From NCBI GenBank assembly GCA_016875915.1, contig VGOM01000017.1, positions 1 to 42,734 of the forward strand: a stretch of 42,734 nucleotides of DNA. The letters are read 5' to 3'. How positions within the stretch are numbered: position 1 is the stretch's first letter; the number at the start of each line of letters is the position of its first letter. This stretch comes from Chloroflexota bacterium. GTDB taxonomy: Bacteria; Chloroflexota; Dehalococcoidia; UBA2247; RBG-13-53-26. This document shows positions 26,911-39,148 of the stretch, piece after piece. The translations under genes and the position numbers were made by a program. Below the pieces are notes generated by a model that worked only from the letters and a program-made list of their open reading frames with translations, ran no database searches and was not told where the DNA came from.

Positions 26911-28185
26911 ATGTCCGGCTACTATATCTGGACCATCGGCTGTCAGATGAACAAGGCCGATTCGGAGCACATGGCCTGCACTCTGGAGCGGGCCGGGTAC
27001 TCACCTGCGCCGCAGGCCGAGCAGGCGGATATAGTCGTCCTGAATAGCTGTGTGGTCCGGGGAAGCGCTGAGACCAGGGTGGTCAACAGGCTCAACTCCC
27101 TCAAAGGACTGAAGAAGAAGTGTCCTGCGGTGACCATCGCCCTGACCGGGTGCATGGTGGACTCCAGGGTGGATGATCTCAGGCGGCGCTTCCCCTGGGT
27201 GGACATCTTCTTCCAGCCCCAGCAATGGCAGGGTCTTGAGGACTGGATCAGTGAACGCGAGTCGTCGGACTCGGCCCAGAGAGGCGGTGCCGCGACCCCG
27301 CCGGGCGGCACGGTTGCCGCCTTCGTGCCGGTGATACACGGCTGCGACAACTTCTGTGCCTACTGCGTTGTCCCCTATCGGCGTGGCCGGGCCAGAAGCC
27401 GGCCCTTGACAGAGATCTGCTCCGAGGTGGAGGCACTGGTCGAGCGGGGCGTGAAGGAAGTCACCCTCCTGGGCCAGATCGTCGATCTCTATGGGAACGA
27501 CTTGCCATCGGGGCCGGACCTGGCCGGTCTGCTGGCCGAGTTGAACAGGATGGCGGGTCTGGAGCGCATCCGATTCCTCACCAACCACCCCAACCACATG
27601 AGCCCGCGGCTGATAGGTGCCGTCGCCGATCTGGACAAGGTCTGCGAGCACATCAGTCTCCCCGTTCAGGCGGGGGACGACGCGATCCTCAGCCTGATGC
27701 GGCGGGGCTACACTGCAGACCAGTACCGCAGGCTGGTGACGGACATCCGGCGCCGTGTCCCCGGCATCTGCTTGAGCACGGACGTGATTGTGGGTTTCCC
27801 CGGGGAGACGGAGGAGCAGTTCGCCCGGACGGCGAACCTCCTCAGTGAGCTGAGATTCGACAAGGTTCACATCGCCGCCTATTCGCCCCGGCCCGACACC
27901 ATCGCTTCACGAAAGATGGAGGACGACGTCTCCAGGGAGCAGAAGGAATCCCGCCGCGGGAGGCTGGAGGCCATGCAACTGCGCATCGCCGGCGAAATCA
28001 ACGCTGGTCTGGTGTACGGGAAGGTGGAGGTGCTGGTGGAGGGTTTGAAGGGAGGCAGGTGGTGGGGCAGAACCAGGGGTGACAAGCTGGTCTTCTTCCC
28101 CGGCAACCCCGACCTGGTGGGGAGACTGGTGCCGGTCAGGGTGGACAAGAGCAGCCCGGTGGCCCTGCAGGGGATGCCTGTCTAG
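26911..28185 (+). CDS. miaB: tRNA-2-methylthio-N6-dimethylallyladenosine synthase, 424 aa
   Basis: MiaB adds a methylthio group to i6A37 of tRNAs reading UNN codons. All three domains are visible. The N-terminal UPF0004 domain has its three cluster cysteines C11, C47 and C81. The radical SAM core has C145-x3-C149-x2-C152. The C-terminal TRAM domain covers about the last 65 residues. GAGGTGA stands about 10 nt before the ATG. The protein is a little shorter than many MiaB (about 440 aa); another methylthiotransferase subfamily is possible but less likely. Its stop shares CTAG with the convergent DUF5343 gene. Confidence 0.9.
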   Translation: MSGYYIWTIGCQMNKADSEHMACTLERAGYSPAPQAEQADIVVLNSCVVRGSAETRVVNRLNSLKGLKKKCPAVTIALTGCMVDSRVDDLRRRFPWVDIFFQPQQWQGLEDWISERESSDSAQRGGAATPPGGTVAAFVPVIHGCDNFCAYCVVPYRRGRARSRPLTEICSEVEALVERGVKEVTLLGQIVDLYGNDLPSGPDLAGLLAELNRMAGLERIRFLTNHPNHMSPRLIGAVADLDKVCEHISLPVQAGDDAILSLMRRGYTADQYRRLVTDIRRRVPGICLSTDVIVGFPGETEEQFARTANLLSELRFDKVHIAAYSPRPDTIASRKMEDDVSREQKESRRGRLEAMQLRIAGEINAGLVYGKVEVLVEGLKGGRWWGRTRGDKLVFFPGNPDLVGRLVPVRVDKSSPVALQGMPV

Positions 28186-28964
28186 CCGGCCCCGGAGTTG
28201 GCCGGACCGCTGCCCATGAAGCCCTTCATGTGTTCGAACCACTTCAGCTTGAGCTCGTCCGGCCAGTCGGCGTTGAACTGAGGGAACTTGTCAATCAGGA
28301 TCACCAGGGTCTGGAAACGGGCAAACCACTCCTCCCGGACCTCTTTGGGCCAACCCGGATCGAAATCGGGCAGTTTGCTGGCGAAGTGGTGTGGGCCGGC
28401 AGCCCTCGTGCTGGCCGGATGGTGCCTCGATGAAGATGATCCCCGCCTGGTCCGGGGCAGGGCGGGCACCGGATGGGCCACGCTCTGGGCCGCCCCCAGC
28501 CTGGACCTGGTCACCAGGTTGGGCGATAGCGCTATCCCTGCGTCCTTGGCCAGGGCCAAGAAGAAGGAAAGGCACTTGCTGCCCACGTTCTTCTCGGCGC
28601 CGTAGTGCTTGAAACGCTCCTCTATCTTCCCCAGGGTGGTCTGCCGCAGGTCGAGGTCTCCGAGCACGGGCTGATAGGCCGACTCAACCATGTCCTTCAG
28701 TTGGGCCTTGTAGTCCTCCCCCTTGGCTTCCAGCAGTGCCCTGAGCCGCACCGTCGGCTCCCCGGTATGCGGGTCGATCAGGCCCAGGAAGGACAGGGCC
28801 GACTTGATGGTCAGGGCGGTGCTCTGCGAGAACCCCAGGTACATCAGGTGGCTCCGGTCCAGGTGCGATGGCGTGTGCCGCCGCAGGGATTCCAGCAGCC
28901 TGTGCCAGGTGGCATAGGTCAGGTATGGGGGGAGGCGGATCCTTTCCTTCGGTTCCCTGGTCAC
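28182..28964 (-). CDS. DUF5343-like protein, 260 aa
   Basis: The first 150 residues resemble the DUF5343 family as I remember it: LPPYLTYATW near the start, then a helical region ending in LALAKDAGI. The family has no assigned function and its fold suggests winged-helix or DNA-binding elements. A Ser/Arg/Pro-rich linker (about 160-195) leads to a C-terminal helical region rich in Trp and Phe. The GTG start at 28964 lies 8 nt after AAAGGAG and just downstream of a near-perfect promoter. It is divergent from the FtsZ cluster, and a shared control region lies between them. Confidence 0.78.
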   Translation of the reverse strand: MTREPKERIRLPPYLTYATWHRLLESLRRHTPSHLDRSHLMYLGFSQSTALTIKSALSFLGLIDPHTGEPTVRLRALLEAKGEDYKAQLKDMVESAYQPVLGDLDLRQTTLGKIEERFKHYGAEKNVGSKCLSFFLALAKDAGIALSPNLVTRSRLGAAQSVAHPVPALPRTRRGSSSSRHHPASTRAAGPHHFASKLPDFDPGWPKEVREEWFARFQTLVILIDKFPQFNADWPDELKLKWFEHMKGFMGSGPANSGAG

Positions 28965-28992
28965 CTCGGCAACTCCTTTGCAGTGTTTCAAC

Positions 28993-29021
28993 AATATAGC
29001 CCCGGCGAGGAAGCATGTCAA
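28993..29021 (-). promoter_or_regulatory. Promoter of the DUF5343-like gene
   Basis: Minus-strand TTGACA (29016-29021), 17-nt spacer, TATATT (28993-28998). The leader would be about 22 nt with a clear AAAGGAG. Confidence 0.72.
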
Positions 29022-29151
29022 GTCTGAGATTACCATGCAATTTCAATGCATCATGAAATATCTATTGAAATGAGATCATACTGTAATATTTGGGCAATGC
29101 AGTGCACATAATTACATAATGTAAACAATGTGTTTCATATCGAAAAACATC
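29022..29151. other. AT-rich divergent control region before the FtsZ cluster
   Basis: This stretch is markedly richer in A and T than the rest of the window and encodes nothing. It holds a perfect inverted repeat ATTTCAAT/ATTGAAAT (29040-29047 and 29064-29071). It separates two divergent promoters and could bind a regulator or nucleoid protein. Confidence 0.5.
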
Positions 29152-29248: not shown

Positions 29249-30286
29249 GTGGACGAAAGAACCATGAGAGTGCCCGCACCCATTAAGGTAATTGGCGTGG
29301 GCGGAGGAGGATGCAACGCCGTACGCCGGATGCTCAAGAAGCCGACCCCCGGAGTCCAGTACATCGTATGTAATACGGACATCAAGTCCCTTGATTCCTG
29401 CCCCACGGAGATACTCTCGGTCCAGATAGGAGAGCATCTGACCCGTGGCTTTGGGGCCGGCGGGGACATCAGGGTAGGGGAGAAGGCTGCAGAGGAGGGT
29501 CGCTTCTTGTTGAAGCGCGCTCTCAAGGATGCCGAACTTGTGTTCATCACGGCGGGCATGGGCGGTGGCACGGGCACGGGTGCTGCTCCCATCGTGGCCG
29601 AGATAGCCAAGGAGAGCCGGGCGCTGGTTATCGGCGTGGTGACCACACCGTTCTCCTTTGAGGGAAAGAGGCGCTTCTCTCTGGCTCTGACCGGCATCCG
29701 CCGATTGCGGCCGGCGGTGGACAATCTCATCATCATTCACAATGATCGCCTGCTTCAGTTCGTGGAGCAGAACAGCCCCACCGGCCATGCCTTCGCGGTC
29801 GCTGACGAAGCCGTTTCGGAAGGCATCCTGGCCGTTTCGCAGCTGATCAATGTGCCCGGAGAGATCAATGTAGACCTGGCCGACGTGAAGAGCGTCATGG
29901 GCATACCGGGCGGCGCCCTCATGGCCATCGGCAGAGCGGATTCCCAGGCTCGCTACCCGGCTCAGGAGGCTGCGGAGCAGGCCATCTCCAACCCCTTGCT
30001 GGACATCGACATCAAGGGTGCCCGGGGCATTCTGTTCAACTTCAGCGGCGGCCCGGATCTGACCCTCGGCGAGGTAAACGACGCGGCCAATCTCATCGCC
30101 AGGGAAGTCCATCCTGACTGCACCATGTTCTTCGGCATGTCCACCGCCAGCGAAGAGATGAGAAACCAGGTCAAGCTGACTCTGGTGGCCACCGGCATAA
30201 ACCCGGCGCTCCCCACTAACTGGCTGGCTGAGATGGGCGAGACCATCAAGGAGGTGCTCACCGGGCAGCGGAGGGGCAGGGGCTAG
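29249..30286 (+). CDS. FtsZ-family GTPase, paralogue 1, 345 aa
   Basis: Tubulin-like GTPase of the FtsZ family. It keeps the N-terminal GGGGCNAV nucleotide loop, the G-box GMGGGTGTG (103-111) and a T7 loop with N207, D209 and D212, so GTP binding and polymer-coupled hydrolysis are expected. It ends about 20 residues after the core (NWLAEMGETIKEVL, then a basic tail). There is no long linker and no C-terminal peptide for FtsA/ZipA/SepF. The GTG at 29249 follows AAAGGAGGG by 5 nt; the upstream GTG at 29207 is rejected. It is the first of three paralogues, each followed by a tiny membrane protein gene. It is probably not the main cell-division FtsZ, since no ftsA or other division gene is nearby. 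Confidence 0.93.
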   Translation: MDERTMRVPAPIKVIGVGGGGCNAVRRMLKKPTPGVQYIVCNTDIKSLDSCPTEILSVQIGEHLTRGFGAGGDIRVGEKAAEEGRFLLKRALKDAELVFITAGMGGGTGTGAAPIVAEIAKESRALVIGVVTTPFSFEGKRRFSLALTGIRRLRPAVDNLIIIHNDRLLQFVEQNSPTGHAFAVADEAVSEGILAVSQLINVPGEINVDLADVKSVMGIPGGALMAIGRADSQARYPAQEAAEQAISNPLLDIDIKGARGILFNFSGGPDLTLGEVNDAANLIAREVHPDCTMFFGMSTASEEMRNQVKLTLVATGINPALPTNWLAEMGETIKEVLTGQRRGRG

Positions 30287-30364
30287 AGGAGGGCGCCTGG
30301 AACCCTGTCGACAGCATGGGATGCAAGTGGCGGCTGAATCAAGCCGAAAAGGGGGTCAGGTAAG

Positions 30365-30559
30365 ATGTCACGGTTGTTAGCATGGCTCAACACAGCAGCG
30401 GGATTGATCCTGTTCTTTGCCATGTCGGGCATAACCCAGTGGGTCATATTCTCCACACCCCAGGCCAAGGTGTTCCCCTTTCTCATCGGCATACTGCTAC
30501 TGGTGAACGCGGTCTACCTTGCCGTGTCAGAGGCTGAGCCCTACGGCCATCGCAGTTAA
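30365..30559 (+). CDS. Two-helix membrane microprotein, 64 aa (family with 30572, 32070, 33619)
   Basis: Two hydrophobic helices (about residues 4-22 and 37-54) flank a short loop with the sequence QWVIFSTPQAKVF. The C-terminal tail is short and polar. It is very similar to the 62 aa protein at 33619, which shares the loop (EWVIFSSPQAKVF). No enzymatic motif is seen. It lies 78 nt after FtsZ paralogue 1. Given the repeated FtsZ/microprotein order, a membrane anchor or partner for the filaments is a reasonable but untested guess. Confidence 0.78.
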   Translation: MSRLLAWLNTAAGLILFFAMSGITQWVIFSTPQAKVFPFLIGILLLVNAVYLAVSEAEPYGHRS

Positions 30560-30571
30560 GGAGGTCATGAG

Positions 30572-30769
30572 ATGTCACGTTTGTTGAGTTGGGGCAACCT
30601 GCTGGTCGGCGGGCTGCTTCTGTTTGCCCTCTCGGACATAGCCTGGACCTGGTTCTCGTCCCCGACATCCAGACTGATCGTGTTCATCCTCTCGGTCTTG
30701 CTGATCGGGAATGCAGTGATGCTGGCCTTCTTCGGGGATGAGAGACCGGCTTGGCGGGAACGAGGGTAG
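30572..30769 (+). CDS. Two-helix membrane microprotein, 65 aa
   Basis: It begins MSRLLSWGN like its neighbours and has two hydrophobic helices (about 8-25 and 34-53) around the loop WTWFSSPTSRL, then a charged tail. It is a diverged relative of the 30365 protein, 12 nt downstream of it, with AAGGAGG as ribosome binding site. The pair is probably translated together. Function unknown. Confidence 0.76.
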   Translation: MSRLLSWGNLLVGGLLLFALSDIAWTWFSSPTSRLIVFILSVLLIGNAVMLAFFGDERPAWRERG

Positions 30770-30775
30770 GGTGAT

Positions 30776-30812
30776 CCAGCCTCCTCTCGCTCAGGCTAGG
30801 GCAGGAGGCTGG
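30776..30812 (+). terminator. First of two hairpins between the microprotein pair and FtsZ paralogue 2
   Basis: Perfect 10-bp stem (30776-30785 with 30803-30812) with a 17-nt loop, only 7 nt after the stop codon. There is no T-run. It could end or attenuate the first transcript, or protect its 3' end. Confidence 0.45.
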
Positions 30813-30831
30813 CCACGGTCTTCGGACACAT

Positions 30832-30856
30832 GGAGGAGAGGAATTCCCTCTCCTCC
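30832..30856 (+). promoter_or_regulatory. Second hairpin upstream of FtsZ paralogue 2
   Basis: Perfect 10-bp stem (30832-30841 with 30847-30856) around AATTC. Both strands of the stem are purine- or pyrimidine-rich (GGAGGAGAGG and its complement). The 3' arm could pair with the GGGGGAG ribosome binding site at about 30895-30901, so a switch controlling paralogue 2 is possible. Confidence 0.4.
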
Positions 30857-30905
30857 GGTCAGAACAACAGAGCCAATCGCAATAATTAAGTGAAGGGGGA
30901 GTCAT

Positions 30906-32021
30906 ATGATCGATTCGATGCGGGGAGGAATGAGATCAATGGATCGGGCCAGGGCGCCGGCACTGATCAAGGTCATAGGTGTCGGCGGTGGTGGCTGCAA
31001 CACCGTCCGCCGCATGATGCGAAACCAGCGGATCCCTGGCGTGGAGTACATAGTAGCCAACACGGATGTGAAATCCCTGGATCTGGTGGATGGGGCCCTC
31101 TCACTGCAGATCGGTGAGCACCTCACTCACGGATTCGGCGCCGGCGGCGATCCCAAGGTGGGTTGCCGGGCGGCGGAGGAAGCCGACTTCCTTCTCAAGC
31201 GGGCCCTCAAGGATGCCGAGCTGGTCTTTGTGACCGTGGGTATGGGCGGGGGTACGGGGACTGGTGCGGCTCCGGTGGTGGCCGCAACCGCCAGAGAGAG
31301 CGGGGCTCTCGTTCTCGCAGTTGTAACGACGCCATTCTCATTTGAAGGCAGGAAGCGCTTTGACGTGGCCATGGATGGCGTCGGCCGGCTCAAGTCCATG
31401 GTGGACAACATGATCGTCGTCCACAATGACCGCCTTCTGCAGTACTCAGATCATGATGCCAGCATCAGCCAGGCCTTCTCCATGGCTGATGAAGTGGTCA
31501 GCGAGGGCATTCTCAGCGTCTCGCAGCTGGTCAACGTTCCCGGAGAGATCAACGTAGACTTGGCCGATGTGAAGGGCGTCATGCGTCTGCAGGGGACTGC
31601 CATCATGGCCATGGGTACTGGTGAAGGGGCGCATCCCGCCATGGATGCTGCGGAGAAGGCCATCTCCAATCCCCTCCTGGACGTAACCATGAAGGGAGCC
31701 AGGGGACTCCTGGTCAGCTTCTCCGGTGGACTCGACCTCAGTCTCGGCGAAGTGAATGAAGCGGCCACCCTGGTGGCCCGCGAAGCTCACCCTGAATGTA
31801 ACTTCAAGTTCGGCTTGGCTTCGCTTAGTGAGGAGCTCCGGGGCAAGGCCAAGGTAACCCTGATTGCCACCGGGATCAGATCATCGGGGTCTGGCCCATC
31901 GGTGTCATCGGCACCGTCGCACGCAACGCATGCCGCGTCCGCGCCGTCACGCACCGCGTCGTCCGCGGGGAAGTGGCTCTCCGGTCTGGGAGAGAAGCTG
32001 AACAAGGCCGCCAGATGGTAG
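30906..32021 (+). CDS. FtsZ-family GTPase, paralogue 2, 371 aa
   Basis: Same architecture as paralogue 1: GGGGCNTV loop, G-box GMGGGTGTG (112-120), T7 loop with N216, D218 and D221. The core is followed by a 30-residue Ser/Ala/Pro/His linker and a terminal amphipathic stretch (GKWLSGLGEKLNKAARW) with Lys on one face and Leu/Trp on the other. This could bind membrane directly, as the MTS of MinD or FtsA does. The ATG at 30906 follows GAAGGGGGAG. It is clearly a duplicate of paralogue 1 but well diverged, so the duplication is old and both copies are under selection. Confidence 0.93.
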   Translation: MIDSMRGGMRSMDRARAPALIKVIGVGGGGCNTVRRMMRNQRIPGVEYIVANTDVKSLDLVDGALSLQIGEHLTHGFGAGGDPKVGCRAAEEADFLLKRALKDAELVFVTVGMGGGTGTGAAPVVAATARESGALVLAVVTTPFSFEGRKRFDVAMDGVGRLKSMVDNMIVVHNDRLLQYSDHDASISQAFSMADEVVSEGILSVSQLVNVPGEINVDLADVKGVMRLQGTAIMAMGTGEGAHPAMDAAEKAISNPLLDVTMKGARGLLVSFSGGLDLSLGEVNEAATLVAREAHPECNFKFGLASLSEELRGKAKVTLIATGIRSSGSGPSVSSAPSHATHAASAPSRTASSAGKWLSGLGEKLNKAARW

Positions 32022-32069
32022 CCTGATGGCTGCCGGGAATCGGAAGGCGATCTGAAGGAGGGAGGCACA

Positions 32070-32282
32070 ATGTCACGTGCACTAGGTTGGTTCAACGTCA
32101 TAGTCGGATTCTTCCTGCTGTCTCTGATTATGTCCGGCGTGTTCAGCCAGGTGCTCTCAGACATATCGGACTGGAACCAGTTCAGCAGCGTCGGGGCCAA
32201 GATCATCGTTGCCGTTGGCGGCATTCTGGCCATCGGCAGCTCGGTCTACCTTGTGCTGGGACGCAGCCGGCAGGAGAAGTGA
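32070..32282 (+). CDS. Two-helix membrane microprotein, 70 aa
   Basis: Starts MSRALGWFNV and has two helices (about 8-28 and 44-63). The connecting loop (SDISDWNQFSSVGAK) is longer than in its relatives and lacks the IFSxPQAK motif. The tail is short and basic. GAAGGAGGGAGG gives a strong ribosome binding site. It follows FtsZ paralogue 2 by 48 nt, as the first microprotein follows paralogue 1. Confidence 0.76.
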   Translation: MSRALGWFNVIVGFFLLSLIMSGVFSQVLSDISDWNQFSSVGAKIIVAVGGILAIGSSVYLVLGRSRQEK

Positions 32283-32305
32283 TGTCGAGGCGGCAGGGCG
32301 GCATC

Positions 32306-32321
32306 GGTCCGACTGCGGACC
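32306..32321 (+). repeat. Short hairpin between the third microprotein and FtsZ paralogue 3
   Basis: Perfect 6-bp stem GGTCCG/CGGACC with a 4-nt loop. It may punctuate the operon RNA. The rest of the gap to 32437 shows no supported gene. Confidence 0.3.
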
Positions 32322-32437
32322 TCGATGATCGTTCCGCCGGTCCAACGTCCGGTCCGGCAGCCAGCCATATCGGTCTCGTTCGTGTACCAGGCCAGTAGCC
32401 CGAAGGACGAAACTACGAAGAGGGGAGACGCTGAAAG

Positions 32438-33526
32438 ATGGAACAGATGGAGATAATGAGGGCGGGCGATGCTGGTAGGGTGGTAGCCCGCATCAAAGTC
32501 ATAGGCGTAGGTGGCGGTGGCTGCAATGCCGTGCGGCGAATGATGCATCAGCACTACCAGGTGCGGGGCGTCGAGTATGTCGTGATGAACACCGACGTCA
32601 AGTCCCTCGAGCTGACCTCCAGCGTCAATTCCATTCACCATAGCATCCAGATCGGGTCGCATCTCACCCAGGGCTTCGGGGCTGGCGGCGATGCCAAGGT
32701 CGGAGAAATGGCCGCCAGAGAGAACATGATGGTCCTTCAGAAGGTCCTCAGGGGCGCTGACCTGGTCTTCATCGCCGCGGGGATGGGTGGGGGCACCGGC
32801 ACCGGTTCGGCTCCGGTGGTGGCCGAGATCGCCCGGGAGGCCGGGGCGCTCGTCGTCGCCGTAGTCACCACGCCCTTCTCTTTCGAAGGCGCCAAGAGGG
32901 CTGAGGTGGCCCTCGGTGGTCTGCGCCGCCTCATCGAGCGGGTGAACAGCACCATCATCGTCCCCAATGACCACTTGCTCAGGCTGGGCGACCATGATGT
33001 GCCCGTTCGGGAAGCCTTCGCTGCCGCGGATCGCGTTGTATCTGAGGGTATCACGGCCATCTCTGAGCTGATCAATATCCCCGGGGAGATCAACTGCGAC
33101 CTGGCTGATGTGAAGAAGGTGATGAGCATCCCGGGGATTGCCATCATGACCACCGGGCGCGGCGAGGGTCCCAATGCTGCCGAGCATGCCGCTGAGGAAG
33201 TCATCTTCGAGCCCCTGCTGGAGACGCATGTCCATGGTGCCAAGGGTGTTCTGTTCACCTTCACCGGCGGGCCGGACCTCACCTTGGGATCGGTGCAGAG
33301 GGCGGCAACCCTCATCGCCAAGCATGTTGACCCCACCGCCTCCATCTTCTTCGGCATGAACCTGCCCAAGGAGGAGCTCACCGGACAGGTGAAGATCAAC
33401 CTGGTGGCCACGGGGATCAAGCAGACCGTAGAAACCGGCTGGTTCGCCGGCATCAAGCAGAACGTCAAGACCACTGCCCAGGCTCAGCCGAGCAAGTTGA
33501 CCCGATTGAGCATGAAGTATGCCTGA
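32438..33526 (+). CDS. FtsZ-family GTPase, paralogue 3, 362 aa
   Basis: G-box GMGGGTGTG (115-123) and T7 loop with N219, D221 and D224 are intact; Cys220 replaces the usual Val/Leu. It has a 4-residue insertion after the first strand-helix unit (region [11 protein letters not shown]) and an extra segment near SSVNSIHHS, so it differs most from the others. It ends in [11 protein letters not shown] and a basic Ser/Thr/Lys tail, again without the canonical FtsZ tail. GAGGGGAG lies about 10 nt before the ATG. The three proteins could form heteropolymers. Confidence 0.93.
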
Positions 33527-33539
33527 AGGTGGGTGACAG

Positions 33540-33566
33540 GCCCGCCTCGGAGCAATGTGAGCGGGC
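33540..33566 (+). repeat. Hairpin after FtsZ paralogue 3
   Basis: Stem GCCCGC/GCGGGC (33540-33545 with 33561-33566) with a 15-nt loop, directly after the stop. No T-run is seen. Confidence 0.3.
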
Positions 33567-33618
33567 ACAAGTAACGAAAGTGGTCCGAATCGAAACTGTG
33601 TAGAGGGGAGGTCAGACG

Positions 33619-33807
33619 ATGCCGCAGCTACTGTCATGGCTCAACGTGATGGCCGGATTGATCCTGTTCTTCGCGATGTCAGGTATATCTGAGTGGGTCA
33701 TATTCTCCTCGCCGCAGGCCAAGGTATTCCCGTTCTTCATCGCCATACTGCTACTGCTCAACGCGGCGTACTTGGCTGTGGTCAAAGGGGAGTGGGCCCG
33801 GCGCTAG
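33619..33807 (+). CDS. Two-helix membrane microprotein, 62 aa
   Basis: Closest relative of the protein at 30365: LLSWLN, then a hydrophobic helix ending in LFFAMSGI, the loop EWVIFSSPQAKVFPF and a second helix ending NAAYLAV. The conservation of the loop between copies separated by two FtsZ genes suggests that it makes a specific contact. GAGGGGAGG precedes the ATG. It follows FtsZ paralogue 3 by 92 nt. Confidence 0.78.
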   Translation: MPQLLSWLNVMAGLILFFAMSGISEWVIFSSPQAKVFPFFIAILLLLNAAYLAVVKGEWARR

Positions 33808-33948
33808 AGTCAGACCTGGCGGATGGAATTCGCCTCATTCGTTCGAAGCACAACAGCGAGACTGAGGAGGCAGCAAGTACAAGGCGCAGGATGACCTGCC
33901 CTTGCCCGGTTGCTGGGCGCCCCCGGAGGGATGGAGGAGGCAGAGACA

Positions 33949-34038
33949 ATGCCGAGCAAGACGGAAGTCATGGTTTGGGGTTTTGTGGTCATATCCATGT
34001 GCATTGTGGTCATGGGCATGATGAACCCCTGGTCCTAG
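33949..34038 (+). CDS. Single-helix membrane microprotein, 29 aa
   Basis: A very short gene with a strong GGAGG 8 nt before its ATG. Residues 8-25 (VMVWGFVVISMCIVVMGM) form one hydrophobic helix after a polar start (MPSKTE), and the end is NPWS. The ribosome binding site, composition and position at the end of the FtsZ/microprotein cluster make it likely real, but peptide evidence would be needed. Confidence 0.6.
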   Translation: MPSKTEVMVWGFVVISMCIVVMGMMNPWS

Positions 34039-34170
34039 ACCGGTGAGGCCGGAATCAACAAAGGATTCGGTGATCCCTGGTTGACCAAGCACTGAATTGA
34101 AGGGACTCTGTCTGGGATGAACTGGAATGCTGGTTCCCGACGGCAAGCCGGGAACTTGAGGATAGGGAAG

Positions 34171-34368
34171 ATGAGAAGAAGACGCAACCCCAGGACGCTG
34201 CGCGGCCTCCTCAGATTGGCGGGGATCACCCTGGTGGTCCTGCCGGAGCCGTTCACAACTCTGCCCGGGGTGGCATTGCTTTGTGCCTCTTTCGCGCTGC
34301 CGGATAGGAGCTACAGGCCTGCTCCATGCTCCGGCGTGATTGTGCGCCGTGGCGCGCTGCCGGCCTGA
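34171..34368 (+). CDS. Small basic/hydrophobic hypothetical protein, 65 aa
   Basis: Arg-rich start (MRRRRNPRTLRG), then a hydrophobic stretch of about 30 residues (LLRLAGITLVVLPEP and beyond) and a polar tail. A GGATAGGGAAG directly before the ATG could be a weak ribosome binding site; an in-frame ATG at 34117 is an alternative. It may be a sixth membrane component of the cluster or a chance frame. Confidence 0.4.
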   Translation: MRRRRNPRTLRGLLRLAGITLVVLPEPFTTLPGVALLCASFALPDRSYRPAPCSGVIVRRGALPA

Positions 34369-34579: not shown

Positions 34580-34594
34580 CTAGCCTGCCTGCTG
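34450..34594. repeat. 145-bp element bounded by perfect 15-bp inverted repeats
   Basis: The arms are at 34450-34464 and 34580-34594 and match perfectly. Three smaller hairpins lie between them, so a transcript from either strand could fold as a closed multibranch structure. The right arm overlaps the last five codons of the Get3-like gene, including its stop. It could be a structured RNA, a miniature inverted-repeat element, or a transcription barrier between convergent genes. No target-site duplication is evident. Confidence 0.55.
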
Positions 34595-35506
34595 GTCAAT
34601 CTGGCCGAAGAGCCGTCTCTCGACCTCTCTGATCCTCTCGATGCCCTTCACTTCATAGGGGAGAAGGGGCAAGATGCAGGAGTTCAGTCCATATCTCCCC
34701 TTCAGTTCCGCCAGGTAGCCCTGCTGCATCCGGGCCTTGGTCTCCAGGAACGACGAGTCAGCCTTCTCCACCACCTGATTGACGATCAGTCTGTCCATGG
34801 TCAGTCCGTAACCGTTGAACTCACTGAAGAGGTCATCCAGCTGGCGCACCGCCAGGGCTTCGGCTATGGTGACGATACTGAACTCCACCCTGCTCCTCAG
34901 GAACTCCATGTCTCTGTCAGAGAGTTCCTGCCACTCCCTGATCACCCCCAGGACCGAGCGCTTCATGTTCGGCGTTGCTTTGAGCGATGAGTAGATCCTG
35001 GCTGCCGGCTTCAGATGGTGATTCATCAGGGAGGGCATCCTCAGCAGCCCCAGGGTCTGCCCTGCCGGAGCGGTATCCCAGACTATGCTCTCGAACCTGC
35101 CGGATTCACTGAGCTCCCTGATGTAGTCCACCATGAACTCGTCTCTGATGCCGGGAAGGATGGTGGCCACGAAGCTGGTGAACTCGCCGTAGTCGATGTC
35201 AACGAAGGTGGAGAACACGTCGTACATCTGGGGGCCGAACTTCTTCTCCCATTGCGCCTTGACATCGCCGTAGCTGATCTCATCCAGGTACAGGTTGTCG
35301 GTCACCCTGGCCGGCTTATCAGAAGAGTTCACCTCGAAGATGTCCCTCAGGGACGGCGTGAAGTCGGTGGAGACCACCAGGGTCTTCCTGCCGGCTGCGG
35401 CGCGGTTCAAGGCGGTGGCCGCCGCTGAGGTGGTCTTGCCCACCCCGCCCTTGCCGCAGAACATGGTCACGTCTCTTGACTTCTTCTCGGCTGGTATTCC
35501 TCCCAT
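34580..35506 (-). CDS. ArsA/Get3-family ATPase, 308 aa
   Basis: Single-domain ATPase with deviant Walker A GKGGVGKTT near the N-terminus, a switch I region STDFTPSL (usually STDPAHSL) and switch II WDTAPAGQTLGLL (usually DTAPTGHTLRLL). Members pump arsenite with ArsB or, in the Get3 branch, chaperone tail-anchored membrane proteins. No CxxC zinc pair and no arsenite cysteine triad are seen, and no ars genes are nearby. The ATG at 35506 has no upstream ribosome binding site; GGGAGG lies within codons 1-3. It is convergent with the FtsZ/microprotein cluster and has its own promoter. Confidence 0.88.
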   Translation of the reverse strand: MGGIPAEKKSRDVTMFCGKGGVGKTTSAAATALNRAAAGRKTLVVSTDFTPSLRDIFEVNSSDKPARVTDNLYLDEISYGDVKAQWEKKFGPQMYDVFSTFVDIDYGEFTSFVATILPGIRDEFMVDYIRELSESGRFESIVWDTAPAGQTLGLLRMPSLMNHHLKPAARIYSSLKATPNMKRSVLGVIREWQELSDRDMEFLRSRVEFSIVTIAEALAVRQLDDLFSEFNGYGLTMDRLIVNQVVEKADSSFLETKARMQQGYLAELKGRYGLNSCILPLLPYEVKGIERIREVERRLFGQIDQQAG

Positions 35507-35887: not shown

Positions 35888-38800
35888 GTGGACTTGAACC
35901 GTAGGGACTTCCTTAGGCTGTCTGGAGCTGGTCTGGCCGGTGCGGTGGCCTTCGGTGCCATGCCTGACACGCCGGCGCTGGCGGTCAAGAACTTCCCGCT
36001 GCCGCTGAGGGCCAGCGAAACGCAGACTATCTGCTGCTACTGCTCCGTCGGCTGCGGGGCCATTGTCACCGTCTGGGGGGAGAACGGTGAAGGGGGCATC
36101 AAGATAGAGGGCGACCCCGATCACCCCATAAACCAGGGCTCCCTCTGCCCCAAGGGCATGGCCATGTATCAGATCCACGAAGTGGAGGGGGAGGTCAACT
36201 CCGAGAGGCTCACCCGGATTCTCCACCGGCAGGCCGGGGCCGATGATTGGGACGATCAGGAGTACGACTGGGACCAGATACTGGACATGATCGCCCGCCG
36301 GGTCAAGGAGACCCGCGACGCGGCCTTCCTGGAGACCGATGAGAACGGCAAGAGGGTCAACCGGTTGGACAGAATGGGTTCTTTCGGTGGGGGAGAACTG
36401 GACAACGAGGAGTGCTACCTCCTGTCCAAGATGGACCGGGCCCTTGGCCTGACCTACGTCGAACACTGCGCCAGGTTGTGACATTCCTCCACAGTTGCGG
36501 CTCTGGCAGAGTCGTTCGGCAGAGGGGCAATGACCAACCACTGGATCGACATCAGGAATGCCGACTGTATCCTGATCATCGGGTCCAACGCGGCAGAGAA
36601 CCACCCCATATCCTTCAAGTGGGTCACCGCGGCCATGGAGCGGCCGGACAACCCGGCGAAGCTGATCCACGTTGACCCCCGCTTCAGCCGCACCTCCTCC
36701 AAGGCTGACATATTCGTCCGGATGAGGTCCGGCACCGACATCGCCTTCATGGGGGGGATGATCAACTACCTGTTGAAGGACATGAGGCTCCATCCCGGCA
36801 ACTACAACATCGAGTACGTGCAGCAGTACACCAACGTGGCATACATCGTCAACAGCGGCATCAAGCTGCCCGGAGAGGACCCCGCCCCCGGCTTCTTCAG
36901 CGGGTGGGCGGACAACAAGTATGCCCCGGCCACCTGGAAGTACGCCGATATGGCCAGTGCTACCGCCGAGGCCAAGCTGCTCACGCCGAACTGGGAAGGC
37001 TGGACCAACAGAGGGGCTGATGATGAGGCGGCTTGGGCGGAGCTCCACGATCGGTGCGTCCTCAAGCTCCTCTGGAAGCAGTACCGCCGCTACGATGAAG
37101 AGAAGGTCTCCCGCATCACCGGAGTCCCCGTGGACAACCTGCGTGAGGTCTATGCCGAGTACGCCAAGACCGGCGCCCGGGGCAAGGCCGGGACCATCAT
37201 GTACGCCATGGGCGCCACTCAGCACACCTACGGCACGCAGAACATAAGGGCCTACTCCATTGTCCAGCTCCTGCTGGCCAACATGGGTCTTGCCGGCGGC
37301 GGCATCAACGCGCTGCGCGGCACCTCCAATGTCCAGGGCTCCACGGACATGGGCCTGCTCAGCCACATACTCCCCGGCTACATCAAGGTGCCCAACGATG
37401 GCGATACGGACGCTACGCTGGCAGGCTACCTGGGCAGGATAACCCCTGCCCCGACCCTGCCGCCATCGGAGCTGGCCGCGGACAACCCCGTCAACTGGTG
37501 GCAGCACACCCCCAAATACGTGGCCAGCATGCTCAAGGCCTGGTGGCCCGGGGCCGACCCGGTGGTGAGCTACGGCTACCTGCCCAAGGGGAAGGCCAGC
37601 GGCGTCAACTACACTCACCTGGGCCTGATCGAAGCCATGGGCAACGGCAAGATCGACGGCCTGTGGGTCTGGGGACAGAACCCGGCGTCTGGTGGACCCA
37701 ACTCCAACGGGGCCCGTGAGGCCCTGGGCAAGCTGAAGTGGCTGGTGGTCAGCGACGTCTGGATGAATGAGACCGCCGAGTTCTGGAAGAGGCCGGGCGT
37801 TGACCGCGGCGACATCGATACGGAGGTCTTCGTCCTGCCCGCGGCTGCCTCCTTCGAGAAACAGGGCAGCGTGTCCAACAGCGGCCGCTGGGTGCAGTGG
37901 CGCTACAGGGCGGTCCTGCCCCCGGGCGAAGCTGCGCCCGACCTGGACATCATGAGCCGCCTGATGAAGAAGATCCAGGAACTCTATGAGGAAGAGGGAG
38001 GAGCCTACCCAGACCCCATCCTCAAGCTTGACTGGCCCTACGGCGACGAGGTGGACCCGGACCTCGTGGCCAGGGAGATCAACGGCTATGCACTGGAGAC
38101 CATCACCGTGGGGGCAAGGACCTACCAGGCGGGAGAGCTGATCGACTGGTTCGGCGATCTGCAGAGCAACGGGAAGACCTCGTCCGGCAACTGGCTGTTC
38201 TGCAACCAGTACACCACGGCCTCAGCCAAGGACAAGGCGGACTACCCCGAGCTGATCACGGTGGTGCAGAAGAACGCTGGCACGGCGGCCATCGAGTCCA
38301 TCAACAAGGCCAGGAAGCGCAACAACATGGATACGTCGCTGAACGAGGTGGGCCTCTACCCCAACTGGTCCTGGTGCTGGCCGCGGAACCGCCGCATCAT
38401 CTACAATCGCGCCTCAGTCGATCTCAACGGCGCGCCCTGGGACGCGGATCACCCCGTCCTCCGCTGGACGGGCACCGGCTGGGACCCCGCCGGTGACGTC
38501 ATCGACGGCGGTGGTGATCCCATCAATGTGGCCGCCGATACCAAGAAGAACCTGCCCTTCATCATGAACTCCGAGGGGGTGGGCAAGCTCTGGGGCTACG
38601 GACTGAAGGACGGGCCCATCCCCGAGGCCTACGAGGCCTGGGAGAGTCCCATCAGCAACGTCATGTCCCCACAGCAGACCGATCCGGCGGCCTTCATCGG
38701 CAGCTTCATGAATGCCCGGGGAGACGCGGCCCAGTACCCCTACGTGGGCACCACGTACCGCTGCACCGAGCACTGGCAGACCGGGATCATGACCCGCAAT

Positions 38801-39148
38801 CTGCCCTGGCTGAGCGAGATTGTCCCTGAGATGTACGTCGAGCTGGGCGAGGACCTTGCCGGGGAGCTCCGCATCCGGGCAGGGGACAGAGTCAGGGTCA
38901 GCTCGGCGCGGGGAAGCATAGAGTGCGTGGCCGCGGTCACCCGGCGCTTCCAGGGCATCAGGGTGGACGGTCAGACCATTCATCACATCGGCGTGCTCTG
39001 GCACTGGGGATACTCGGGCCGTGTTCGGGGTGATAGCGGCAACATCCTTACCCCCGGCATAGGCGATGCCAATACCACCATTCCGGAGTACAAGACCTTC
39101 CTCTGCAACGTTGAGAAGCTGACAGGGAAGGAGGCCGCAGATGTCTAA
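35888..39148 (+). CDS. fdnG: Selenocysteine-containing formate dehydrogenase-type molybdoenzyme, catalytic subunit, 1086 aa, Tat-exported
   Basis: FdnG/FdhA-type subunit with bis-pterin Mo or W. The N-terminus is a twin-arginine signal (NRRDFLRLSG). A [4Fe-4S] domain follows (C49/C50, C52, C56, with CPKG later). The frame meets TGA at 36479-36481 exactly where FdnG has selenocysteine: ARL-U-HSSTVAALAESFGRGAMTNHW, compared with ARVUHGPTVASL in E. coli. It then runs on without interruption, so this is Sec198, not a frameshift. The GTG at 35888 follows AAAGGAGG. The end overlaps the next gene by 8 nt. A periplasm-facing formate oxidase is the best call, but related oxidoreductases cannot be excluded. 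Confidence 0.93.
36482..36512 (+). promoter_or_regulatory. Candidate bacterial SECIS element after the UGA codon
   Basis: Directly downstream of the UGA a small hairpin can form: TTGC (36495-36498) with GCAG (36506-36509) around a 7-nt loop GGCTCTG. The distance from UGA is right and the GTTGC-x-G-x-TCTG stretch resembles the E. coli fdhF element. The lower stem is weak by eye, so the exact fold is uncertain. Confidence 0.35.

Follow-up and report, generated by a model that had tools for sequence, protein, structure and literature searches.

FtsZ is elsewhere linked to the membrane by FtsA and SepF, and the C-terminus of canonical FtsZ is the peptide that these partners bind. Here, we describe a locus that is built differently: in a 42,734-nucleotide stretch of contig VGOM01000017.1 (assembly GCA_016875915.1), from a Chloroflexota bacterium of the class Dehalococcoidia, three ftsZ genes (Z1, Z2 and Z3) lie in tandem, interleaved with genes for short membrane proteins. 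We refer to the whole stretch as the window, and to the three ftsZ genes with their microproteins as the triad. A first point of comparison lies within the class itself, in which derived members have lost the division and cell wall (dcw) and peptidoglycan genes and retained mraZ-mraW-ftsZ-ftsA, with rsmH/mraW as the usual neighbor of ftsAZ in wall-less Dehalococcoidia (PMC10608941). With this canonical FtsZ-FtsA pair, the triad shares the FtsZ fold, the GTPase and T7 motifs, the FtsZ_C domain, an equivalog-level score and, in one genome (G005), the rsmH/mraW neighbor, whereas it differs in comprising three paralogues with interleaved microproteins, in lacking both FtsA and the C-terminal peptide, and in falling in a separate clade. 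Archaeal FtsZ1 and FtsZ2 likewise provide several FtsZ paralogues per cell, and OdinFtsZ1 attaches to the membrane via its own N-terminal amphipathic helix, while OdinFtsZ2 depends on SepF (PMC12583498). The triad has a candidate amphipathic helix as well, but it is bacterial, comes in three tandem copies, carries that helix at the C-terminus rather than the N-terminus, lacks SepF and includes microproteins. The same study notes that mycoplasma FtsZ has putative membrane-targeting sequences and that Arabidopsis FtsZ1 binds membrane through its C-terminus (PMC12583498); with mycoplasma and chloroplast FtsZs, the triad shares a wall-less or reduced division and possible direct lipid binding. The Mycoplasma genitalium cluster (mraZ-mraW-MG_223-ftsZ) differs from the triad in its single ftsZ, and no interleaved membrane microproteins are described in the available part of its source (PMC8475190). 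The FtsZ-like families FtsZl1 and FtsZl2 (PMC2875224) and CetZ belong to the same FtsZ/tubulin superfamily and have likewise been proposed to remodel membranes; the triad proteins, however, are bona fide FtsZs with the FtsZ_C domain that CetZ lacks (PMC9871819). According to a survey of the FtsZ family, bacteria that carry two ftsZ copies are few (PMC9871819), and a search of the open-licence literature turned up no account of ftsZ genes in a tandem triad with microproteins.

On balance, and with moderate confidence, we read the triad as an FtsZ-based constriction module, independent of FtsA, whose most likely role is cell division in a wall-less family of Dehalococcoidia. We regard it as more likely to be the division machinery than an add-on because no other ftsZ, and neither FtsA nor SepF, was found in the genomes that carry it. 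A bolder version, which we put forward more tentatively, is that, in this one bacterial family, three co-operating FtsZs and dedicated one- and two-helix microproteins have taken over completely from FtsA, SepF and the peptidoglycan divisome. The module consists of the following genes:

29249..30286, forward strand: Z1, FtsZ paralogue of 345 amino acids with a GTG start and the tail NWLAEMGETIKEVLTGQRR
30365..30559, forward strand: T1, two-helix membrane microprotein of 64 amino acids
30572..30769, forward strand: T2, two-helix membrane microprotein of 65 amino acids
30906..32021, forward strand: Z2, FtsZ paralogue of 371 amino acids with a Ser/Pro-rich linker and the tail GKWLSGLGEKLNKAARW
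32070..32282, forward strand: T3, two-helix membrane microprotein of 70 amino acids, with a longer first helix
32438..33526, forward strand: Z3, FtsZ paralogue of 362 amino acids, the fastest-evolving of the three
33619..33807, forward strand: T4, two-helix membrane microprotein of 62 amino acids
33949..34038, forward strand: m29, single-helix membrane protein of 29 amino acids, MPSKTEVMVWGFVVISMCIVVMGMMNPWS
34171..34368, forward strand: H, protein of 65 amino acids with an Arg-rich N-terminus, a hydrophobic hairpin and the motif LPEPFTTxxG

All nine genes lie on a single strand with spacers of 12-155 bp, and a purine-rich, ribosome-binding-like stretch precedes every start. The three FtsZs are 55-60% identical to one another, match both Tubulin (PF00091) and FtsZ_C (PF12327) above the Pfam cut-offs, and score 352 (Z1), 340 (Z2) and 334 (Z3) bits against the ftsZ equivalog model TIGR00065 (cut-off 295.2). 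All 22 triad FtsZs read across genomes have an intact G-box (GMGGGTGTG) and T7 loop (NxDxAD), and an AlphaFold2 model of Z1 shows the FtsZ fold with a predicted local distance difference test score (pLDDT) of 91, Bacillus subtilis FtsZ being its closest match in the PDB. Two other identities, FtsZl and CetZ, were rejected as scoring below the cut-off: the Pfam Tubulin_2 model (PF13809), which was used to test for divergent FtsZ-like proteins such as FtsZl1, gave 13-20 bits (cut-off 27). T1-T4 form one homologous two-helix family, and T1 is modeled by AlphaFold2 as a two-helix hairpin (pLDDT 70). Because helix 1 carries a conserved Asn and the C-terminus is Arg-rich in most members, the positive-inside rule suggests that both ends of the T proteins point toward the cytoplasm. 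Assignment of the T proteins to TctB was rejected (PF07331, 20.7 bits against a cut-off of 29.1, covering only a third of the model).

The module, in the same gene order, was found in 8 of the 10 genomes searched from a single Dehalococcoidia family, spanning four genera: the window's genome (G000), G001, G002, G003, G005, G007, G008 and G009. These genomes are 63-97% complete, with G000 at 93%, G005 at 97%, G007 and G009 at 95%, and the remaining four at lower values. All compared genes of the locus are under purifying selection, with ratios of non-synonymous to synonymous substitution rates (dN/dS) of 0.03-0.24, although synonymous sites are near saturation in several comparisons. The recurrence of the gene order in seven other genomes, together with this selection, argues that the locus is not a product of chance and rules out spurious small open reading frames. 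The T family occurs in 8 of 393 genomes of the class, all of them triad carriers and at the triad locus only, and in a 400-genome sample of the phylum its matches were just the two triad genomes drawn. The 29-residue gene is kept in G001, G002, G003, G007, G008 and G009 (dN/dS 0.03-0.21), and H at all eight loci (dN/dS 0.11-0.19), including the reduced locus of G005, which has one recognizable T gene and neither m29 nor the Get3-type neighbor described below. A fifth T gene is present in G001 and G007. The loci of G002 and G003 are cut by contig ends at Z1/T1, and what might have passed for a fourth FtsZ copy in G002 proved to be Z1 split at contig edges. In G009, Z1 (L120:8254-9345:-) is split by an internal TGA into two frames of 162 and 159 amino acids, by an assembly error or as a pseudogene. 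A mobile or phage origin is unsupported, as the locus is conserved by descent and, in the window, has rpoB no more than about 8 kb away; the triad contig of G009 also holds an rpoB-like gene. No triad was found in a broad contig scan, the matches of which were mostly from Bacillota, cyanobacteria and candidate phyla and which possibly did not include kin of the window's genome. The first-pass annotation, made from the letters of the window alone, had described three complete FtsZs with intact G-box and T7 loops on one strand, microproteins of 62-70 amino acids with two helices after each of them, a one-helix protein of 29 residues and no divisome partner genes; all of this stands, and the locus proves to be conserved and dedicated, with microproteins specific to it. 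Its trailing small open reading frame is real and conserved as H, with a start better placed at 34171, where the homologues in relatives begin, and the recurrence of the gene order that it had suggested looking for was seen in all seven of the other triad genomes.

To place the triad FtsZs, we built a tree from 85 FtsZ sequences, with the root outside the phylum. Each of the three paralogues Z1, Z2 and Z3 is monophyletic across genomes (support 100/99), and the triplication is therefore older than the genera that carry it. The triad clade (100/98) is nested among accessory FtsZs of the class, in a clade (100/99, with G120) that includes single extra copies in G019, G053, G321, G095, G326, G292, G346, G109 and G369, while the canonical FtsZs of the triad's own family and order are placed elsewhere (100/98). 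Z3 has the longest stem in the tree. The triad thus arose inside the accessory FtsZ clade; the canonical division FtsZ of the order is not its source. Among the genomes with an accessory copy that are at least 90% complete, FtsA is also present in five of six, with G346 giving no match. Two further FtsZ arrangements were seen in the class: a tandem FtsZ pair in another family, its two genes separated by about 0.5 kb (L208 / G042:C59:2824-5177), where no related microprotein was found, and, in the triad's order, a divergent, long-branched FtsZ (G011:C31, L029), whose homology was reported with two in-frame stops.

The second line of evidence is what the triad genomes lack. No ftsZ outside the triad was found in any of the eight, four of which are 93-97% complete, and FtsA was absent from all eight by two models (PF14450 and PF02491), the positive controls of which matched. 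FtsA was detected in the four other order members tested by both models (G010-G013), and also in the two family genomes without the triad (G004 and G006), which keep canonical ftsA-ftsZ pairs. SepF was absent from all 60 relatives searched, with matching positive controls, and FtsW/RodA and transpeptidase penicillin-binding proteins were absent from the whole order. Six further genomes were FtsA-negative (G042, G050, G053, G037, G039 and G019); since these are 69-88% complete and, among those read, G042, G050 and G053 each retain an FtsZ with the C-terminal peptide, the absence there may reflect incompleteness. The triad lineage thus appears to have lost the usual FtsA-FtsZ pair and to carry a three-FtsZ operon instead. 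G004 (L124-L126) and G006 (L127-L129) each hold about three ftsZ and three ftsA genes (PF02491: three), several as adjacent pairs, and represent a parallel FtsZ expansion that retained FtsA. One of the G004 copies (L125:8289-9908:-) has a PAS domain (PF13596, 51.7 bits) fused at the C-terminus of the FtsZ.

These absences bear directly on the strongest alternative, namely that the triad is an accessory cytoskeleton (for shape, vesicles, an S-layer or internal membranes) and that division is FtsZ-independent or relies on an ftsAZ pair missed in all bins. The accessory lineage that gave rise to the triad coexists with canonical ftsAZ elsewhere (G095, G321, G292, G109 and G369), and its ancestral role was therefore probably not division alone; moreover, the wall-less M. 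genitalium is able to grow without ftsZ (PMC8475190). We nevertheless consider such a cytoskeleton rather unlikely, given the lack of another ftsZ in eight of eight genomes, the concurrent lack of FtsA, and the strong purifying selection on Z1, Z2 and Z3.

An expanded ordinary division locus, in which a canonical FtsZ was triplicated and the small open reading frames are incidental membrane proteins, would agree with the equivalog scores of Z1, Z2 and Z3, with the rsmH/mraW gene adjoining the G005 triad and with the roughly three FtsZs, alongside FtsA, of the sister lineage G004/G006. This explanation is improbable: the approximately unbiased (AU) test rejects a grouping of the triad with the canonical FtsZs of its order (p=7e-4) or its family (p=5e-74), FtsA and the C-terminal peptide have been lost, and the microproteins are co-conserved with, and exclusive to, the triad locus. 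The first-pass annotation had named such an expansion as the outcome to expect if the genome held no other ftsZ and one copy grouped with division FtsZ. The first part agrees with our results, in that the separate division ftsZ it had considered elsewhere was found in none of the eight genomes; the second does not, as the copies group with the accessory lineage. Its premise that known bacteria have one division FtsZ was also too strong, as two ftsA-ftsZ pairs are present in some Dehalococcoidia, for example G027.

If FtsA and SepF are gone, the FtsZs would need another hold on the membrane, for which their tails are a candidate. A C-terminal peptide of the P-x-F-x-R type (as in the canonical tails LDIPAFMR and LDVPPFLRR) is found in none of the 22 triad FtsZs, none of the 9 accessory FtsZs (that of G019 has a degenerate remnant, APAFLSRK) and 45 of the 54 remaining FtsZs. 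Instead, all triad FtsZs end in a W-hydrophobic-x-x-hydrophobic motif (NWLAEMGETIKEVLT in Z1, KWLSGLGEKLNKAAR in Z2, and a version of its own in Z3), with L in place of W in Z2 of G007. Since canonical tails reach hydrophobic moments of up to 0.5, the moment alone was rejected as a discriminator, and we scored the amphipathicity of the W-anchored 15-mer against shuffled versions of it. The tails of Z1 and Z2 were amphipathic beyond shuffles in every genome (p 0.001-0.016), and the Z1 model has a separate, low-confidence tail helix at residues 325-338.

Gene content, gene order and the tree show that an accessory FtsZ without the FtsA-binding peptide triplicated into Z1, Z2 and Z3 and acquired small membrane proteins as companions, and that the loss of canonical FtsZ and FtsA falls, as a pattern, in the same lineage; what caused the loss, and the steps that follow, we infer. 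Z1, Z2 and Z3 would then polymerize on the cytoplasmic membrane, probably jointly as heteropolymers or as coordinated filaments, held there by their W-hydrophobic tails, by the two-helix T proteins, or by both. The T proteins could serve as anchors in place of FtsA and SepF, or as partners that curve the membrane and, as no septal peptidoglycan has to be made, it may be the filaments themselves that deform the membrane. Least probable of the alternatives is the same module with tethering by the FtsZ tails alone and the T proteins as curvature or insertion partners (wedge hairpins like those of reticulon or CURT), which would suit the short T hairpins with few cytoplasmic residues, the conserved tail of every Z and the single recognizable T of G005, but sits poorly with T genes that alternate with the Z genes instead of forming a cluster, with T proteins that have no Pfam similarity to curvature proteins, and with a weak Z3 tail, which suggests help from a partner.

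Several observations weigh against an FtsA-independent division module. The genomes that carry the triad have the look of metagenome bins, and a missed ftsA or ftsZ is conceivable, although absence in all eight, including the four most complete, argues otherwise. The loss of FtsA and the gain of the triad are one event in one clade, and their association is therefore not statistically independent. As for membrane attachment, the Z3 tails are weakly amphipathic (p 0.02-0.26), canonical tails too can reach a high helical moment, the tail helix of the Z1 model has low confidence (pLDDT about 60), and the three Zs of G005 with their one recognized T indicate that not every Z needs a T of its own.

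If the proposed role is correct, the triad represents a new way of building a bacterial division ring, and it means that an accessory paralogue is able to take the place of the canonical ftsAZ pair. It is a long-standing question whether FtsZ filaments alone are able to constrict a membrane, without FtsA or wall synthesis, and nature appears to offer such a case in the triad family, with three FtsZs and short membrane proteins in genomes where FtsA, SepF, FtsW and transpeptidase genes were undetected. As the components are small and only nine in number, rebuilding the module in vitro could be feasible.

Three further features flank the module in the window:

28182..29036, reverse strand: DUF5343-family gene, divergent from Z1, start possibly at 28964; a partner gene kept in relatives
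28993..29021, reverse strand: sigma-70-like promoter site ahead of the DUF5343 gene (TTGACA-17-TATATT, 11/12, a consensus match only)
34580..35506, reverse strand: Get3/ArsA-type ATPase, convergent neighbor (TIGR00345, 149.8 bits)

The DUF5343 gene belongs to the conserved triad unit. The window protein scores just under the cut-off of the domain model (PF17278, 26.4 bits against 27), and its orthologues in G005 and G321 score 30.0 and 54.7 bits. The orthologue is divergent from Z1 in G001, G005, G007, G008 and G009, wherever the contig extends far enough, and it also adjoins the single accessory FtsZ of G019 and G321. The intergenic region between the DUF5343 gene and Z1 is AT-rich, and a role of the DUF5343 protein as a regulator is possible. 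The Get3/ArsA-type ATPase adjoins the triad in seven of the eight genomes (the window's, G001, G002, G003, G007, G008 and G009) and is absent from the G005 locus; it is possibly linked to the triad and might serve the insertion of small membrane proteins.

Elsewhere in the class, near-complete one-contig genomes (1.4-1.9 Mb) have 19-30 reductive-dehalogenase matches each, and many reductive dehalogenases are a mark of Dehalococcoides and Dehalogenimonas, in keeping with a placement of the class as Dehalococcoidia. Farther along the window, a gene for a formate-dehydrogenase-like alpha subunit (35888-39148, forward strand) contains an in-frame TGA at 36479 (context VEHCARL-TGA-HSSTVA), which is likely a selenocysteine codon.

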